Origin: Actinomyces marseillensis
GTDB taxonomy: Bacteria > Actinomycetota > Actinomycetes > Actinomycetales > Actinomycetaceae
Length of the DNA stretch: 64,000 bases
NCBI RefSeq assembly: GCF_900155605.1
Contig: NZ_LT707420.1
Location: forward strand, 1,296,842 to 1,360,841
Reading direction: 5' to 3'
In this document: piece by piece, positions 9,337 through 41,200 of the stretch
Layout of the letters: each line of letters begins with the position of its first letter
How positions within the stretch are numbered: position 1 is the stretch's first letter
The notes under the pieces: generated by a model
What the model saw: the letters and a program-made list of their open reading frames with translations, nothing else
What the model was told of the DNA's origin: nothing
Database searches by the model: none
Program-made: the position numbers and the translations under genes

Positions 9337-9633
9337 ATGAGTACGAAACTTTCGTCCGCTGCTTTACAAGGTATGACGCTTGCCGAGGTTGTCGCAGAGA
9401 ATGTGCGCGCATACGCTGGTCGTCGCCGTCTCACGCGGTCGGAGCTCGCACGCATGATCGGAATGAATAACACAGCGGCTGGTAGCCGTTGGCGTGGTGA
9501 GATTGAGTGGCGACTGTCAGAGCTTCCCAGTGTCGCAAACGCGCTAGGGGTCTCAATTGACGATTTATTGACACCCCCGCGCGGTGTGGAAGTGTGCCCC
9601 CGACAGGACTCGAACCTGCAACCTCGGGATTAG
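9337..9633 (+). CDS. Small XRE-type HTH protein running into tRNA-Arg
   Basis: A 98-aa frame whose first about 80 residues look like a Cro/C1-type HTH: LTRSELARMIGMNNTAAG for the helix-turn-helix, then LPSVANALGVSIDDLLTP. The gene appears leaderless: -10 TAAATT ends 6 nt before the ATG, with TAGACA 18 bp upstream. The last 13 codons are antisense to the 3' part of the tRNA-Arg gene; the encoded CPRQDSNLQPRD tail is the usual artefact of translating a tRNA in reverse. So the original C-terminus was probably lost and the frame now ends inside the tRNA. It may be a remnant of an element once inserted at the tRNA 3' end. DNA targets are unknown. Confidence 0.6.
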   Translation: MSTKLSSAALQGMTLAEVVAENVRAYAGRRRLTRSELARMIGMNNTAAGSRWRGEIEWRLSELPSVANALGVSIDDLLTPPRGVEVCPRQDSNLQPRD

Positions 9634-9667
9634 AAGGCCCTTGCTCTATCCATTGAGCTACGGAGGC
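9595..9667 (-). tRNA. tRNA-Arg (anticodon TCT)
   Basis: 73-nt cloverleaf on the minus strand. The acceptor stem GCCTCCG pairs with CGGGGGC (one T-G wobble), the D stem is GCTC/GAGC, the anticodon loop is CTTCTAA, and the T arm GCAGG-TTCGAGT-CCTGT has one wobble. Discriminator base is A and CCA is not encoded. The anticodon stem is imperfect: positions 27-43 (A/G) and 31-39 (C/T) do not pair, leaving three G-C pairs. All other conserved bases are present. Confidence 0.88.
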
Positions 9668-9780
9668 GTGCTAGCCAAGCTCTGGCCAGCCCTACATAGT
9701 GTACATGGCGCGAGCCGTCACACTTTCCCAATCTCTGGGCCGGCTGTGCACATCAAAAGAAAACAACGGATAATACAGAC

Positions 9781-9846
9781 ATGCTTGAAAGAAGTTCTGG
9801 ACGTAGTGCCCTTGTGGGTTCGATCCGCGCTCGAATGTGCGCCTGA
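9781..9846 (+). CDS. Putative leaderless leader peptide upstream of metF
   Basis: A 21-codon ORF ending in SIRARMCA-stop. The -10-like GATAAT (9769-9774) ends 6 nt before its ATG, so the mRNA would start at or next to the A of the ATG, with a TGCACA -35-like box 16 bp upstream. Its stop is 51 nt before metF. Between them a GGCGC/GCGCC hairpin (9868-9880) sits 7 nt before the metF AAGGA ribosome site. The geometry (leaderless, about 21 codons, R-M-C-X-stop) matches the leader ORF at 13278-13346. A role in methionine- or cysteine-dependent attenuation of metFE is inference. Confidence 0.45.
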   Translation: MLERSSGRSALVGSIRARMCA

Positions 9847-9897
9847 GTTTTCCGCGCATCCGACCGTGGCGCTTCGCGCCGACTTCCAAGGACTTAT

Positions 9898-10848
9898 ATG
9901 ACACAGCCCTCCCAATCTTCTAGTGACCTCACGACCTTGTCCTTCGAGGTCATGCCTCCTCGTAAAGAAAACCTCATTAAACCTTTCTGGGATACCGTCC
10001 AGCGTCTTCTCTCCGTTACCCCCGATTTCCTGTCGGTGACTTACGGCGCCGCAGGACAAGACCGCCACAGTGCGCGCGATGTTGTGCGCTCTCTCGTACA
10101 GGACAGCCCCGTTCAGCCCATTGCTCACCTCACCTGCGTGGGAACAACTGCAACAGAAGTCGGGGAAGTAGTTTCGGACTACTTGGACGCCGGAGTGCGA
10201 ACCTTCCTTGCGCTTCGCGGAGATCCTCCTGTCGGCCGCCCGGATTGGCAGCCTGCGCCCGGGGGAGTGAGCTCAGCAACCGAACTTGTCACTCTGATCC
10301 GCTCCATCGAGGCCGCGCGCTGTGCGCAATACCCCGGTGCCGCCTTGCGTGCAGCATTCAAGCCTCTCACTATCGCTGTTGCCGCATTCCCTGCTGGAAA
10401 CCCCGCAGCGGGTACCTCTCCCAACCAGGAAGTTGAACGCCTGCTCGTCAAACAATCCGCGGGCGCCTCTTTCGCGATCACGCAGTTGTTCTGGGAGACA
10501 GATACCTACGTGAACTTCCTTGAGAAAGCGCGGAGCAACGGGGTAACAATCCCGATCGTTCCCGGAATTTTGCCTCCGACTGATATTAAGCGCGTCAATC
10601 GAATGACGGAGTTAACCGGGGTTGTTTTCCCCGAGTACCTGCGTCGACGCTTGGAAAGCGCTCAGTCAGTCGAAGAAATGTACTCAGTCGGTGTTTCTTT
10701 GGGAGCACGGCTGGCTCGGGATCTGCATGAAGCGGGAGCCCCGGGCATCCACATGTATACCTTTAATAAAGCGGCACCTGCTCTCGATGTGCTCGATGCC
10801 GCTGGACTTGTTTCTGCAAGCCATTTAGACCCGTCCATTTCACGATGA
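9898..10848 (+). CDS. metF: Methylenetetrahydrofolate reductase
   Basis: Reduces 5,10-methylene-THF to 5-methyl-THF, the methyl donor for MetE. The 316-aa TIM-barrel flavoprotein begins TTLSFEVMPPRKE (the conserved E-x-PP-K segment), and shows VTYGAAG, AHLTCVG, LALRGDPPVG and SAGASFAITQLFW, all typical of MetF. The ATG has an AAGGA site 5 nt upstream. The stop is followed after 14 nt by metE, so the two form an operon. A small leader ORF lies between the probable promoter and metF, hinting at attenuation. Confidence 0.93.
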   Translation: MTQPSQSSSDLTTLSFEVMPPRKENLIKPFWDTVQRLLSVTPDFLSVTYGAAGQDRHSARDVVRSLVQDSPVQPIAHLTCVGTTATEVGEVVSDYLDAGVRTFLALRGDPPVGRPDWQPAPGGVSSATELVTLIRSIEAARCAQYPGAALRAAFKPLTIAVAAFPAGNPAAGTSPNQEVERLLVKQSAGASFAITQLFWETDTYVNFLEKARSNGVTIPIVPGILPPTDIKRVNRMTELTGVVFPEYLRRRLESAQSVEEMYSVGVSLGARLARDLHEAGAPGIHMYTFNKAAPALDVLDAAGLVSASHLDPSISR

Positions 10849-10862
10849 CAAAGGATAAGTAA

Positions 10863-13172
10863 ATGACTCAATTCCCTACGGCGACCATCCTGGGTTACCC
10901 GCGCATCGGTCGTGGCCGCGAGCTGAAGAAGGCGCTCGAAGCCTACTGGGCGGGCCGTATTTCCGCCGAGGAACTTCGCGCGACGGAAGCTCTGCTGCGC
11001 AAGACCACGCATGACCGACTTGTCGAGCTCGGCCTCGGCAGGGATGACGCGTCGATCCCCGAAACCTTCGCGCTCTACGACCAGGTTCTGGACGCGATCA
11101 CCCTTCTGGGTGCAGTTCCCGAGCGCTACCGTTCTTTCGAAGGCTTGGATCTACACTTTGCCCTCGCTCGCGGCAATGCGCAGGTTGCGCCCCTGGAGAT
11201 GACTAAGTGGTTCGATACGAACTACCACCACTTGGTTCCCGAGATTGGCCCGGATACTCCGATTTCTTTCGCTGATCGTACGATCGTCGAGCGTTTCCTC
11301 GCCGCCAATGAAGAGGGCACCGTTGTCCGCCCCGTGCTGGTTGGCCCCGTGACCTTCCTCGCCGTCGCTAAGGCTGATGAAGCAACCCCCGATTACGATC
11401 CCTTCGAGCGCCTTGACGATGTTGTTGCGGCATACGCAGACGTTCTCGCAGAGCTTGCCGAGGCCGGTGCTCCCTGGGTCCAGATCGATGAGCATGCGCT
11501 TGCTTCTGATAACCTCCGCGTCGATCGCACCACCCTGATCGAATACTCGACCCGTGTCTTCCGTGCTCTGGCCGCGCTCGAGAAGCGTCCTGCGCTCTTC
11601 GCTGCCATTGGTTACGGTGATGGTTCACGCGCAGCTGTTTCTCTTGCCACCACCGGCATTGAGGCTCTGGGGCTGGACCTGTGCCGCGGTTCTCTTCCCG
11701 AGGCGACTTCCGTCGATTTGTCCAAGGTCGCCCTCGTTGCGGGTGTCGTTGATGGTCGCAACATTTGGCGCAGCGACCTCGATAGTGCAATTGCACGACT
11801 CGATGACGCGAAGGCACTTCACCCCGCATCCCTGGCCGTCGCCACTTCCACTTCGCTTCAGCACGTCCCGCACGACACTGCACTCGAAAAGTGGGATGAC
11901 CCCGTGCTTGACGCGAACCTCCACGCGTGGCTGGCCTTCGCCGACCAGAAGGTTGCCGAGGTTGTGACCCTTGCCCGCGGCGTCCGCCAAGGCTGGGATT
12001 CGATTTCCGAGGCCGTCGAGGCAACCCGCGAGGTTCTTGCGCAGCGTGCAGCTGCTCCCGGCGTTGTTCGCCCCGAACTGCGTGAGCGTGTCGCAAAGCT
12101 GACCGAAGCCGATCGCCAGCGCGAGGACTTCGCTCTTCGCGATGAACTTCAGCGCGAGCGCCTTGACTTGCCGCTGTTGCCTACCACGACGATTGGTTCC
12201 TTCCCGCAGACCACCGAGATTCGTCGCGCGCGTGCTGCATGGGCCAAGGGCGAGCTCTCTGATGCAGACTACGCCGAGCGTATGCGTGAAGAAATCGCTT
12301 CGGTGATTCGCCTTCAGGAAGATCTGGGACTGGATGTCTTGGTTCACGGCGAAGCTGAGCGCAACGACATGGTTCAGTACTTTGCTGAGCAGCTCGATGG
12401 CTTTGCAGCAACGAAGAACGGCTGGGTGCAGTCTTATGGTTCACGTTGCACCCGTCCGTCGATTCTGTGGGGTGACGTTGTCCGTCCTCACGCAATGACC
12501 GTTGAATGGGCACGCTATGCGCAGTCGCTGACTTCTCATCCCGTCAAGGGCATGCTGACCGGTCCGGTTACCATCATTGCATGGTCCTTCCCGCGTAATG
12601 ACCTGCCTTTGGCTCAGGTTGCTGACCAGATTGGTCTTGCCCTGCGTGATGAGGTTACTGACTTGCAAGAGGCCGGAATTGCGGTCGTCCAGGTCGATGA
12701 GCCCGCATTGCGCGAGCTTCTTCCTTTGGATGCTGCTCGACACAGCGAGTACCTCAAGTGGGCAGTGGATTCCTTCCGCTTGGCCACCGCTGGAATTCGT
12801 CCTGATACACAGATCCACACGCACCTGTGCTACTCGGAGTTTGGCCAGATTCTTGATGCAATCTTGGGCTTGGATGCGGACGTTACCTCGATTGAGGCCG
12901 CGCGTTCTCGCATGGAAGTGCTTCCTGAGCTTGCAGAGCAGGGATTCAACCACGGCGTTGGCCCGGGTGTGTGGGATATTCACTCGCCTCGCGTTCCTTC
13001 GGTGGAAGAACTCACCGAGCTGCTGACGCTGGCTGCCGAATCGATCGAGCTACGTAACCTGTGGTCGAACCCCGACTGTGGTTTGAAGACTCGTGGTTAT
13101 GCAGAGACTGAAGAATCCCTCAGGAACCTTGTTGAAGCAACGCGAATCGTGCGTGCCCAGCTTGAAAACTGA
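10863..13172 (+). CDS. metE: Cobalamin-independent methionine synthase
   Basis: Transfers the methyl group from 5-methyl-THF (triglutamate) to homocysteine to make methionine. The 769-aa double-barrel protein has the N-terminal FPTATILGYPRIGRGRELK motif, the linker around residue 430, and a C-terminal catalytic barrel starting LPTTTIGSFPQT. The zinc ligands His and Cys are visible in IHTHLCYSEF and the second Cys in NPDCGLKTRGY; DPA-type VQVDEPALRE binds homocysteine. It has an AAAGGATAAGTAA ribosome site and follows metF in an operon closed by a strong terminator. No cobalamin-dependent MetH is seen in this window. Confidence 0.95.
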   Translation: MTQFPTATILGYPRIGRGRELKKALEAYWAGRISAEELRATEALLRKTTHDRLVELGLGRDDASIPETFALYDQVLDAITLLGAVPERYRSFEGLDLHFALARGNAQVAPLEMTKWFDTNYHHLVPEIGPDTPISFADRTIVERFLAANEEGTVVRPVLVGPVTFLAVAKADEATPDYDPFERLDDVVAAYADVLAELAEAGAPWVQIDEHALASDNLRVDRTTLIEYSTRVFRALAALEKRPALFAAIGYGDGSRAAVSLATTGIEALGLDLCRGSLPEATSVDLSKVALVAGVVDGRNIWRSDLDSAIARLDDAKALHPASLAVATSTSLQHVPHDTALEKWDDPVLDANLHAWLAFADQKVAEVVTLARGVRQGWDSISEAVEATREVLAQRAAAPGVVRPELRERVAKLTEADRQREDFALRDELQRERLDLPLLPTTTIGSFPQTTEIRRARAAWAKGELSDADYAERMREEIASVIRLQEDLGLDVLVHGEAERNDMVQYFAEQLDGFAATKNGWVQSYGSRCTRPSILWGDVVRPHAMTVEWARYAQSLTSHPVKGMLTGPVTIIAWSFPRNDLPLAQVADQIGLALRDEVTDLQEAGIAVVQVDEPALRELLPLDAARHSEYLKWAVDSFRLATAGIRPDTQIHTHLCYSEFGQILDAILGLDADVTSIEAARSRMEVLPELAEQGFNHGVGPGVWDIHSPRVPSVEELTELLTLAAESIELRNLWSNPDCGLKTRGYAETEESLRNLVEATRIVRAQLEN

Positions 13173-13189
13173 GTAGTTATTGCTGCCTG

Positions 13190-13232
13190 AGAGGGTGGGA
13201 ACATGTGGCCTTCGGCTGTGTTCCCACCCTCT
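13190..13232 (+). terminator. metFE operon terminator
   Basis: 14-bp perfect stem (AGAGGGTGGGAACA) with an inner GCC/GGC hairpin in the loop, followed by TGTTCTTCCTTTT. It isolates metFE from the next promoter, whose -35 box begins 11 nt later. Confidence 0.85.
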
Positions 13233-13243
13233 TGTTCTTCCTT

Positions 13244-13271
13244 TTGACACAAGTTCAGCATTCGATAGAAT
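13244..13271 (+). promoter_or_regulatory. Strong promoter of the Met/Cys-rich leader ORF
   Basis: Perfect -35 TTGACA (13244-13249), 16-bp spacer, -10 TAGAAT (13266-13271). Six bases (AAAGCC) separate the -10 from the ATG at 13278, so the predicted transcription start coincides with the start codon. Confidence 0.8.
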
Positions 13272-13277
13272 AAAGCC

Positions 13278-13346
13278 ATGACTTTTAACGCGACCATGAC
13301 TTGCCGCCCTATGTGCGGCTCCATGTGCTCGCGAATGTGTATGTGA
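13278..13346 (+). CDS. Leaderless Met/Cys-rich leader peptide (22 aa)
   Basis: A 22-codon ORF with 6 Met and 4 Cys residues; residues 7-22 read MTCRPMCGSMCSRMCM. There is no room for a ribosome site: the promoter's -10 lies 6 nt before the ATG, so translation would be leaderless. The Met and Cys codons are concentrated in the last 16 codons, where slow decoding would hold a ribosome just before a set of possible hairpins. It precedes an orphan winged-helix gene and follows metE. Composition, position and promoter fit a sulfur-amino-acid attenuator; the alternative of a metal- or redox-binding micropeptide cannot be excluded. I know of no named family for it. Confidence 0.65.
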   Translation: MTFNATMTCRPMCGSMCSRMCM

Positions 13347-13422
13347 TTGACCTTCGCCCTGTCAATCGCTACCGCCTGAAATTCCACGATGAAAGTGGTG
13401 TGTGCGGTACCAAATAGTTTGG
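13345..13422 (+). promoter_or_regulatory. Possible attenuator between leader peptide and winged-helix gene
   Basis: Several competing stems are visible. GATTGAC (13345-13351, overlapping the leader stop) pairs with GTCAATC (13361-13367). TACCGC (13370-13375) pairs with GCGGTA (13404-13409) around a CCAC/GTGG hairpin. CCAAA (13410-13414) pairs with TTTGG (13418-13422), which covers the only ribosome-site-like GGA before the ATG at 13430. TGTGCGG occurs both inside the leader ORF (13312-13318) and at 13401-13407, so the CCGC segment could choose between partners. There is no T-run, so control would be at translation initiation rather than termination. Confidence 0.45.
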
Positions 13423-13429
13423 ATACATC

Positions 13430-13849
13430 ATGACCCTTGTTTACACCCCTGAAACCCGTCCGTCCGAAGTTCCCACTTCTTTCGAAGACTTCCTCGAGGT
13501 TCTTGCAGGACTCAGGCTCTCGCCAGCATCAACGCACATCGATCTGGACCGCCGTCGCCTTGAGGTATACGGATCTTCAGTGAAGCTGTCGAACAAGGAA
13601 TATGAATTGCTTGCCTACCTTGTTCAGCGCGCAGATGAAGTAGTTTCACGCGAGGAACTACTGGAATCGGTTTGGTACGGCGAAGGCCTCGAGACACAGA
13701 CGCGCACGATTGACGCTCACATCCGTCGTTTACGAGCAAAACTGCCTGAGACGGATCTTATTTCCACCCTGCGAGGCCAGGGTTACCGTTTCAATTCCAC
13801 CCCGACGGTGCGCGTAAGCTGCACGCGCGTTCACACGCTTGCTGCCTAG
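13430..13849 (+). CDS. Orphan OmpR/PhoB-type winged-helix DNA-binding protein
   Basis: A 139-aa protein with a single C-terminal-type transcriptional regulatory domain (residues about 40-125): VKLSNKEYELLAYLVQRADEVVSREELLESVWYG, then the recognition helix TIDAHIRRLRAKL and the wing LRGQGYRFN. There is no receiver domain, only a 35-residue N-terminal segment, so it is not controlled by phosphorylation of its own receiver. The ribosome site is weak and lies in a possible hairpin downstream of a Met/Cys-rich leader ORF. Position after metFE suggests, but does not prove, a role in sulfur amino acid regulation. It converges with ilvA. Confidence 0.8.
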   Translation: MTLVYTPETRPSEVPTSFEDFLEVLAGLRLSPASTHIDLDRRRLEVYGSSVKLSNKEYELLAYLVQRADEVVSREELLESVWYGEGLETQTRTIDAHIRRLRAKLPETDLISTLRGQGYRFNSTPTVRVSCTRVHTLAA

Positions 13850-40402: not shown

Positions 40403-41200
40403 ATGGGTCTGTATAAAGCCTTAAAGCTGACGGGCACTCCGATTCTCAAAGCTGCTTACCGGCCCTGGATTCGAGGGAAAGAGAACATCCCTGAAACAGG
40501 TCCCGCGATCTTGGCATCGAACCATAACGCCGTGTGGGACTCAGTTTTTCTTCCCATGATGATTGACCGTGAGGTTGTCTTTATGGGCAAAGCCGACTAC
40601 TTCACCGGAACCGGGATCAAGGGATGGGCAACGAAGGAATTCATGCGCGCCGTCGGCACTATTCCTGTCGATCGCAGTGGTGGTCGCGCGTCTGAAGCCG
40701 CATTGAAAGCTGGCCTCAAGCGCCTCGGCGAAGGTGAACTTTTTGGAATCTACCCCGAAGGGACTCGTAGTCCCGATGGTCGTCTGTACCGTGGGAAGAC
40801 CGGTGTTGCGCGATTGGCGCTGCTTTCCGGAGCTCCCGTTATCCCCGTTGCGATGATTGGAACACACGCGGCTCAGCCGATCGGGCAGAAGATTCCTTCG
40901 CGAACCAATATCGGTATGGTGATCGGCGAACCCCTTGACTTCAGCCGTTACAAGGGCTTGGACCGTGATCGCTTTGTCCTACGAGCCATCACCGATGAAA
41001 TCATGTACAACCTCATGCTTTTATCCGGACAGGAATACGTCGACTTGTACGCCGCGGATGTTAAAGCCCAGCTTGCTGCAGAAGGCGCTTTCGACGGACC
41101 TGTGCCTTCGAATGGAAAGACTGCACCCGGCGGACGAGTTGCCCCTGACGTCGAAGTTCCCACTCCAACAGAGGAAGAACTTCACGAGGAAGAAAACTAA
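40403..41200 (+). CDS. plsC: 1-acyl-sn-glycerol-3-phosphate acyltransferase
   Basis: A 265-aa membrane-associated acyltransferase that makes phosphatidic acid. It has the catalytic NHNAVWDS (H-x4-D, about residue 38), GTIPVDRSGGR, and the substrate motif YPEGTRSPDG, then GAPVIPVAMIGT. An acidic Pro/Glu tail (TPTEEELHEEEN) is extra. ATG 40403 has a GGAGGAA site; the upstream 15 codons of the frame lack one. Confidence 0.9.
   Translation: MGLYKALKLTGTPILKAAYRPWIRGKENIPETGPAILASNHNAVWDSVFLPMMIDREVVFMGKADYFTGTGIKGWATKEFMRAVGTIPVDRSGGRASEAALKAGLKRLGEGELFGIYPEGTRSPDGRLYRGKTGVARLALLSGAPVIPVAMIGTHAAQPIGQKIPSRTNIGMVIGEPLDFSRYKGLDRDRFVLRAITDEIMYNLMLLSGQEYVDLYAADVKAQLAAEGAFDGPVPSNGKTAPGGRVAPDVEVPTPTEEELHEEEN

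Follow-up and report, generated by a model that had tools for sequence, protein, structure and literature searches.

The regulator gene at positions 13430-13849 of the window, the whole 64,000-nucleotide stretch of Actinomyces marseillensis DNA that was analysed, stands behind a real and deeply conserved leader system. Leaders of the same kind precede metF-metE and metY-metX. Common to the leaders of all three operons is one in-frame CGA-AUG codon pair, while Cys and the other residues drop out. The original prediction, which read the many Met and Cys codons of the regulator leader as the mark of a methionine and/or cysteine sensor, was right in its link to methionine and wrong in its argument from composition. 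There is a somewhat better than even chance that the regulator, metF-metE and metY-metX form a methionine regulon under ribosome-mediated leader attenuation, with CGA-AUG as the sensing site.

The regulator and its leader

Features of the regulator locus:
13244..13271, forward strand: promoter of the regulator leader, TTGACA, 16 bp, TAGAAT; 11 of 12 matches
13278..13346, forward strand: leaderless leader ORF, MTFNATMTCRPMCGSMCSRMCM-stop, kept in 33 of 33 same-genus orthologues
13332..13337, forward strand: CGA-AUG pair, with its AUG three codons ahead of the stop; proposed site of methionine sensing
13430..13849, forward strand: orphan winged-helix regulator of 139 aa, Trans_reg_C only, C-terminal HTLAA

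The promoter hexamers TTGACA (13244-13249) and TAGAAT (13266-13271) are followed, after 6 nt, by the ATG at 13278, and the transcript is predicted to start at or adjoining this codon. The string TTGACA-N16-TAGAAT occurs only once in the genome. The ORF comprises 22 sense codons, including 6 Met and 4 Cys; for comparison, Met stands at 2.0% and Cys at 0.9% across 41 ORFs of the window. Promoter, spacing, leaderless ATG, ORF length and Met/Cys content all agree with the original prediction, as do the two copies of TGTGCGG (13312-13318 and 13401-13407). The leader contains no Cys run near its stop codon of the kind that marks polycysteine uORFs.

The encoded protein has a PF00486 winged-helix DNA-binding domain (E 8.3e-25). 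The domain search found Trans_reg_C alone, with no receiver domain as in OmpR/PhoB proteins. Its C-terminus (HTLAA, 13835-13849) is shared by relatives, with LAA in 30 of 33 orthologues, LVA in two and one unreadable at the end. LAA resembles an ssrA-type degradation tail, and the regulator is probably short-lived, given this ending.

When 213 genomes of the family were searched with the protein, strong orthologues (E below 1e-35) appeared in 33 of 35 same-genus genomes; the best hit outside the genus had an E-value of 5.4e-17. The original prediction had proposed relatives as its own check, and the leader is indeed kept: all 33 orthologues are preceded by a matching ORF of 21-25 sense codons that ends Arg-Met-Cys-x-stop, with 3-7 Met and 2-4 Cys per leader. 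A -10-like hexamer lies 6-7 nt before the ATG or GTG in each, 29 of them found by a strict pattern and four (L006, L028, L031, L065) read by eye; the pattern's pick for L006 was a false inner start, and some leader starts were likewise chosen by eye among nested ATG/GTG codons. Because the sample holds one genome per species, with many near kin, none of these counts represents independent events.

A covariance model of the regulator leader matched 34 of the 213 family genomes, namely these 33 and, weakly, G101 from another genus. Rfam gave no match inside the leader in nine loci at E-values up to 10. At gathering score across the whole window it returned nothing except a tRNA, and so neither a SAM riboswitch nor a T-box nor any other listed family. 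In one genome (G166; L028, 1077-1458) the leader is tandemly duplicated: the upstream copy is intact; its downstream duplicate no longer has a start of its own, and reading there begins at an ATG that follows the upstream copy's ribosome site. The regulator at L034 is 85% identical to that of the window, and its record is titled Trueperella pyogenes, possibly a mislabelling.

A codon pair shared by the leaders of three operons

Features of the sister leaders:
9769..9774, forward strand: -10 box GATAAT of the metF leader promoter (read by eye), 6 nt before its ATG
9781..9846, forward strand: leaderless leader ORF, MLERSSGRSALVGSIRARMCA-stop (ends RARMCA), unannotated, preceding metF-metE; CGA-AUG at 9832-9837
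9898..10848, forward strand: metF, methylenetetrahydrofolate reductase (PF02219)
10863..13172, forward strand: metE, cobalamin-independent methionine synthase (PF01717, PF08267)
G000:C2 286833-286856, minus strand: metY-metX leader MFQRMRS, outside the window in the same genome (loci L299, L204)

The covariance model also matched 3.6-3.9 kb upstream in G153, G154, G156 and G161 and on another contig in G155. The G101 match is a metF leader as well (MSNRALMMTMPCVGMVARMCMDNN). The third kind of leader precedes metY-metX; the copy in the window's own genome is leaderless, spans just 7 codons and has its stop codon inside a GCTGAC/GTCAGC hairpin. In G144 the leader precedes metX, and the metY of that genome has none. 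Since metF-metE and metY-metX have leaders of the same kind, the tie to methionine is stronger than the original prediction knew. Its placing of the regulator beside metFE holds in the window, where metF and metE lie directly upstream, and does not hold as a universal arrangement: in the flanks fetched for the 33 orthologues, mostly just 1.5 kb long, metE turned up in 22 cases, one of them a remnant.

The strict pattern CGAATGTGYNNNTGA had 81 matches in the 35 genus genomes compared with one for the reversed control (30 loci were fetched). CGAATGN6TGA occurs at 22 places in the window's own genome, and it opened leaderless ORFs at the metY, metF and regulator leaders only. A short ORF with in-frame CGA-AUG lies upstream of all 30 best metF loci of the family, counted without G144 and G170; a loose -10 rule classes 28 of these ORFs as leaderless, and the other two have a Shine-Dalgarno start. 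Such an ORF also precedes metY at 28 of 30 loci. In a further set of 60 metF upstream regions, a leaderless CGA-AUG leader was present in 13 of 13 from genera g7, g8, g14, g30 and g32; none was found in 12 regions from ten other genera of the family or in 35 from other families (about 480 bases upstream each). Three of those 47 (L280, L295, L296) have an in-frame CGAATG in a short ORF with the -10 layout missing. An order-wide pattern search gave nine matches outside the genus, all with two mismatches. The strict -10 pattern recovered 30 of 33 regulator, 23 of 30 metF, 19 of 31 metY and 13 of 61 further metF regions. A tRNA-Arg(TCT) gene on the minus strand (9594-9667) adjoins the metF leader promoter, probably by coincidence.

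In total, 103 leaders were collected (33 regulator, 28 metF, 28 metY and 14 further metF; 82 distinct sequences). The conserved Met lies three codons before the stop in 90 of them, and eight carry two or three CGA-AUG pairs, adjacent in seven. CGA-AUG is present in 33 of 33 regulator leaders. The non-regulator ORFs were gathered by requiring in-frame CGAATG; because CGA is thus partly built into the collection, the per-locus counts (33/33, 30/30 and 28/30) and a search for leaderless ORFs with any Arg codon before Met are fairer guides. Besides CGA leaders, that search returned one unrelated AGA-AUG ORF (L010), and no leader with another codon in the place of CGA. In the 103 leaders, CGA accounts for 17 of the 177 Arg codons that have no Met after them, earlier Arg-Met pairs use a non-CGA codon in 16 of 27, and CGA makes up 155 of 1093 Arg codons (14%) in 41 window ORFs.

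Two other definitions of the leader family were abandoned. An ending in RMC-stop does not extend to metY and other-genus metF leaders, which show RMP, RMR, RMQ and RMF. Met/Cys richness was ruled out as the defining feature by the metF and metY leaders.

These comparisons bear directly on what might be sensed. A sensor of Met and/or Cys set by many such codons, as originally predicted, accords with the 2-4 Cys and 3-7 Met of the regulator leaders. It is quite improbable for the family, as 25 of the 103 leaders are free of Cys and nearly all 7-residue metY leaders have just the start Met and the Met of CGA-AUG; what survives of it is the link to methionine synthesis. Metal sensing by a Met/Cys peptide is harder still to credit. 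Copper-responsive leader peptides occur in Bordetella, and the Met/Cys spacing of the window's regulator leader, that one only, would suit such a role; the spacing is not kept in metF and metY leaders, and the neighbours are methionine genes.

Exact nucleotide conservation of CGAAUG, together with the occurrence of tandem hexamers, is also what would be expected if a protein or another stretch of RNA bound it as an RNA element, with the ORF incidental. This reading has little chance of being correct: CGAATG is in frame in 114 of 114 cases inside collected ORFs (most collected by that rule), the layout of -10 box, start codon and stop is kept, and no Rfam family matches.

More weight, if still on the unlikely side, attaches to nascent-peptide arrest, in which a nascent chain ending in Arg or Arg-Met would stall the ribosome in response to free methionine, SAM or another small molecule. 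Such small-molecule-dependent arrest is known from the TnaC and Erm leaders. Arg-Met is kept in all three operons and R-A-R-M-C is common across genera, as a peptide signal would require. A peptide alone needs no fixed codon, however, and the Arg codon here is fixed as CGA; the peptides also differ widely upstream of Arg-Met, and 22 of 28 metY leaders have just 7 residues, too short to reach far into the exit tunnel. Were arrest the mechanism, which is similarly doubtful, the same downstream structures would then be used.

The tRNA set of the genome suggests why CGA itself might matter. ARAGORN found Arg tRNAs with anticodons ACG, CCG, TCT and CCT and no tRNA-Arg(UCG) among the 51 tRNA hits in the genome; one partial match was not called. 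Bacterial tRNA-Arg ACG is deaminated to ICG. Since no tRNA-Arg(UCG) was found, CGA must be read via I·A wobble.

Leader RNA structure and the proposed response to methionine

Structural features of the regulator leader:
13303..13319, forward strand: stem P1 inside the ORF, GCCGC (13303-13307) with GCGGC (13315-13319); 95.7% of alignment cells paired
13343..13369, forward strand: hairpin A, GTGATTGAC (holds the stop codon) with GTCAATCGC; 96.5% paired
13371..13408, forward strand: hairpin C, ACCGC/GCGGT with inner CCAC/GTGG; helix 3 91.4% and helix 4 78.8% paired
13410..13422, forward strand: hairpin D, CCAAA/TTTGG, which hides the GG within the weak ribosome site GGATAC; 95.7% paired
13337..13428, forward strand: proposed helix H, GUGUAU (13337-13342) with AUACAU (13423-13428), from minimum-energy folds of the window leader (L002) and of L016

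Stems P1, A, C and D covary. The five helices (P1 is helix 1, A helix 2, and D helix 5) are paired in 92.1% of alignment cells, compared with 30-39% when partners are slid by 1-3 columns. Double changes occur in 19 of 28 pairs, compared with 7.8 in shuffles: 2/4 in P1, 5/9 in A, 5/6 and 5/5 in helices 3 and 4 of C, and 2/4 in D. These pair counts (31 rows, 29 distinct, with both L028 copies included and L022, L023 and L025 omitted as exact or near duplicates) lean towards the structure because the alignment was fitted to a model carrying it. RNAalifold, applied to a plain alignment, found P1, A and D and did not find C. The competing stems and hidden ribosome site of the original prediction are thus present, the hairpin at 13410-13422 covering the GG of GGA. 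The covariation that it proposed to test is seen for the stems; the Cys codons drop out when the three operons are compared. Part of the Cys content arises because P1 (TGC CGC ... TGC GGC) lies inside the ORF: two Cys codons of the window leader sit in this stem, and other species build P1 with non-Cys codons, which argues further against a sensor set by composition. A trp-like pairing of the ORF's GCGGC with a later GCCGC (segment 2 with segment 3) was seen by eye, left uncounted and dropped.

Enclosure of the stop codon in a local hairpin extends beyond the regulator. Its pairing is 0.93 in regulator leaders (0.45 shuffled) and 0.87 in metY leaders (0.55 shuffled), where an exact stem is present in 23 of 28. 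The hairpin is weaker in metF leaders (0.61 compared with 0.43 shuffled) and absent in eight metF leaders of other genera (0.26 compared with 0.51 shuffled). One metY leader (L186) has lost the stop codon and retained the stem by a double change.

Helix H would join the CGA-AUG/stop region to the bases before the regulator start codon and thereby form a four-way junction together with A, C and D. Covariation of H falls short of significance: 86.2% of cells are paired, only one change is compensatory (L012), and a register shifted by two columns pairs 81.6%. The helix is partly lost in four rows with another last codon (L018, L020, L029, L065).

A possible mechanism can be built on these elements. 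Each operon opens with a leaderless mini-ORF, whose sensing site would be the CGA-AUG near its stop. Reading of CGA by tRNA-Arg(ICG) through a poor I·A wobble would make decoding of the AUG depend unusually strongly on Met-tRNA supply. With ample methionine, the ribosome would complete the ORF and depart, and the regulator mRNA would form helix H, hiding the ribosome site. When methionine is short, a stall at CGA-AUG would block H and open the regulator ribosome site; the regulator would then bind a shared promoter element and raise transcription of the met operons. That CGA in the P site sensitises the next AUG as a hungry codon, and that the methionine regulon of the family is built on this effect, could about equally be right or wrong. 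Sensing by a single hungry codon would be unusual, as known attenuators use runs, and severe starvation could halt leader translation because the start codon itself needs methionine.

Folding models are consistent with part of this scheme. In refolds of 31 sequences, the masked ribosome footprint reached 15 bases upstream and 13 bases downstream from the first base of the P-site codon. Masking at CGA-AUG raised the unpaired fraction of the bases before the regulator start codon from 0.39 to 0.78, a rise that follows directly from the removal of one strand of H. At CGA it exceeded 0.1 in 28 of the 31 sequences. The unpaired fraction was 0.74-0.79 for P-site positions between the second codon ahead of CGA and the third beyond it, and 0.42-0.59 for stalls further upstream. 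Accessibility of the regulator AUG itself fell by more than 0.1 in 19 of 31 sequences and rose in one, and hairpin D still covered the GG when H was open. The model therefore supports release of the upstream bases, and this support does not extend to the initiation site as a whole.

A different read-out must operate in the metF and metY operons, because masking folds of two leaders of each showed no opening at the Shine-Dalgarno bases. In the window, the first codons of the metF leader pair with the metF Shine-Dalgarno bases in the fold, so that a queued second ribosome could be the effector there. Terminator-like sites in 9660-13500 number three, compared with 4.0 expected in shuffles, and none follows the regulator leader. 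A weak one at 9826-9841 runs across the metF leader's CGA-AUG, and it, like the queued ribosome, is a speculative candidate for the effector.

A shared promoter element and comparison with known systems

Element matches in the window:
9715..9740, forward strand: shared element (candidate operator) upstream of the metF leader; score 16.2
13242-13267: operator-like 26-mer over the core promoter of the regulator leader; score 10.3

A motif search of 56 genus promoters, those left of 79 after similar ones had been removed (no leader start was obtained for four metY loci), returned one element, CTGTYACAnAnTCcCannaTGtGGAC, with a log-likelihood of 629 compared with 65-70 in three shuffled sets. It scores at least 9, a cut-off chosen after the scores were known, in 53 of the 56 non-redundant promoters of the regulator, metF and metY. 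The element lies 65-69 bases before the leader start in 50 and 77-79 bases in three, a shift of roughly one helical turn. The three promoters that fall short are those of the regulator at L002 and L004, from the window's lineage, and the metY promoter of G158, a genome without the regulator. In other genera, the 21 leader promoters scored in register all stay below 9, with a maximum of 6.2; of the 23 listed, L174 and L176 have no fixed start and were scanned over 500 bases, and the ORFs behind the L154 and L166 promoters have a Shine-Dalgarno start. Among 400 random 95-nt stretches of the window, the top score is 7.9. The right half of the element also occurs at about -66 in several genomes without the regulator.

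Among the promoters tested, the element reaches threshold only in genomes with the regulator. The regulator most likely binds it ahead of the leader promoters. In relatives the element is situated upstream of the -35 box, and it lies over the core promoter of the regulator leader in the window, so control there may have flipped from activation to repression, and autoregulation may differ in the window's lineage. A both-strand scan of the window gave weaker matches at 40945-40970 (9.3) and 1293-1318 (8.8).

If a single codon pair does serve as a sensor, it would join the fields of attenuation and inhibitory codon pairs. One AUG could then report the supply of Met-tRNA, the pair being repeated up to three times in some leaders. 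The orphan regulator also gains a likely regulon and a recognisable candidate binding site.

The nearest precedent for the decoding step comes from fungi. Yeast inhibitory codon pairs that involve I·A-wobble CGA are slow, order-specific and conserved in place, according to the accessible part of that study (PMC6379720). CGA-AUG is not named among them in that part, and the leaders here are bacterial; we infer that similar slow decoding applies to CGA-AUG in these organisms.

Ribosome-mediated attenuation has its classical example in trp. The leaders described here resemble classical attenuators in having codons for the relevant amino acid in a leader peptide and candidate alternative RNA structures: the regulator leaders have a short ORF at the predicted transcript start and a Met codon at a conserved place. 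They differ from such attenuators in having no cluster of regulatory codons and no terminator-like site after the regulator leader. In M. tuberculosis, ilvB1 is given as a classical ribosome-mediated attenuator in the accessible sections of PMC13236596. No methionine-sensing bacterial leader-peptide attenuator appeared among the papers listed by the literature searches, most subscription journals being outside the reach of that search. In Actinobacteria, Seliverstov 2005 (PMC1262725) described leader peptides, some without terminators, and leaders with Cys runs, and in its accessible text reported no RNA elements upstream of methionine operons. The present leaders are similar in being actinobacterial leader peptides, some of them terminator-less.

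The closest parallel is with the mycobacteria, in which leaderless polycysteine uORFs control sulfur-metabolism genes by translation attenuation (PMC13236596, citing Canestrari 2020) and leaderless Cys-rich uORFs were reported earlier (Shell 2015, PMC4633059), as far as the accessible portions of these papers describe them. Both systems place a leaderless short ORF before sulfur-metabolism genes in Actinobacteria. The mycobacterial uORFs are Cys-rich, whereas the leaders here share a single CGA-AUG, with Cys dispensable, before methionine operons. Unlike the mycobacterial uORFs as portrayed in those portions, they are also accompanied by covarying stems and by a dedicated transcription factor within the likely regulon.
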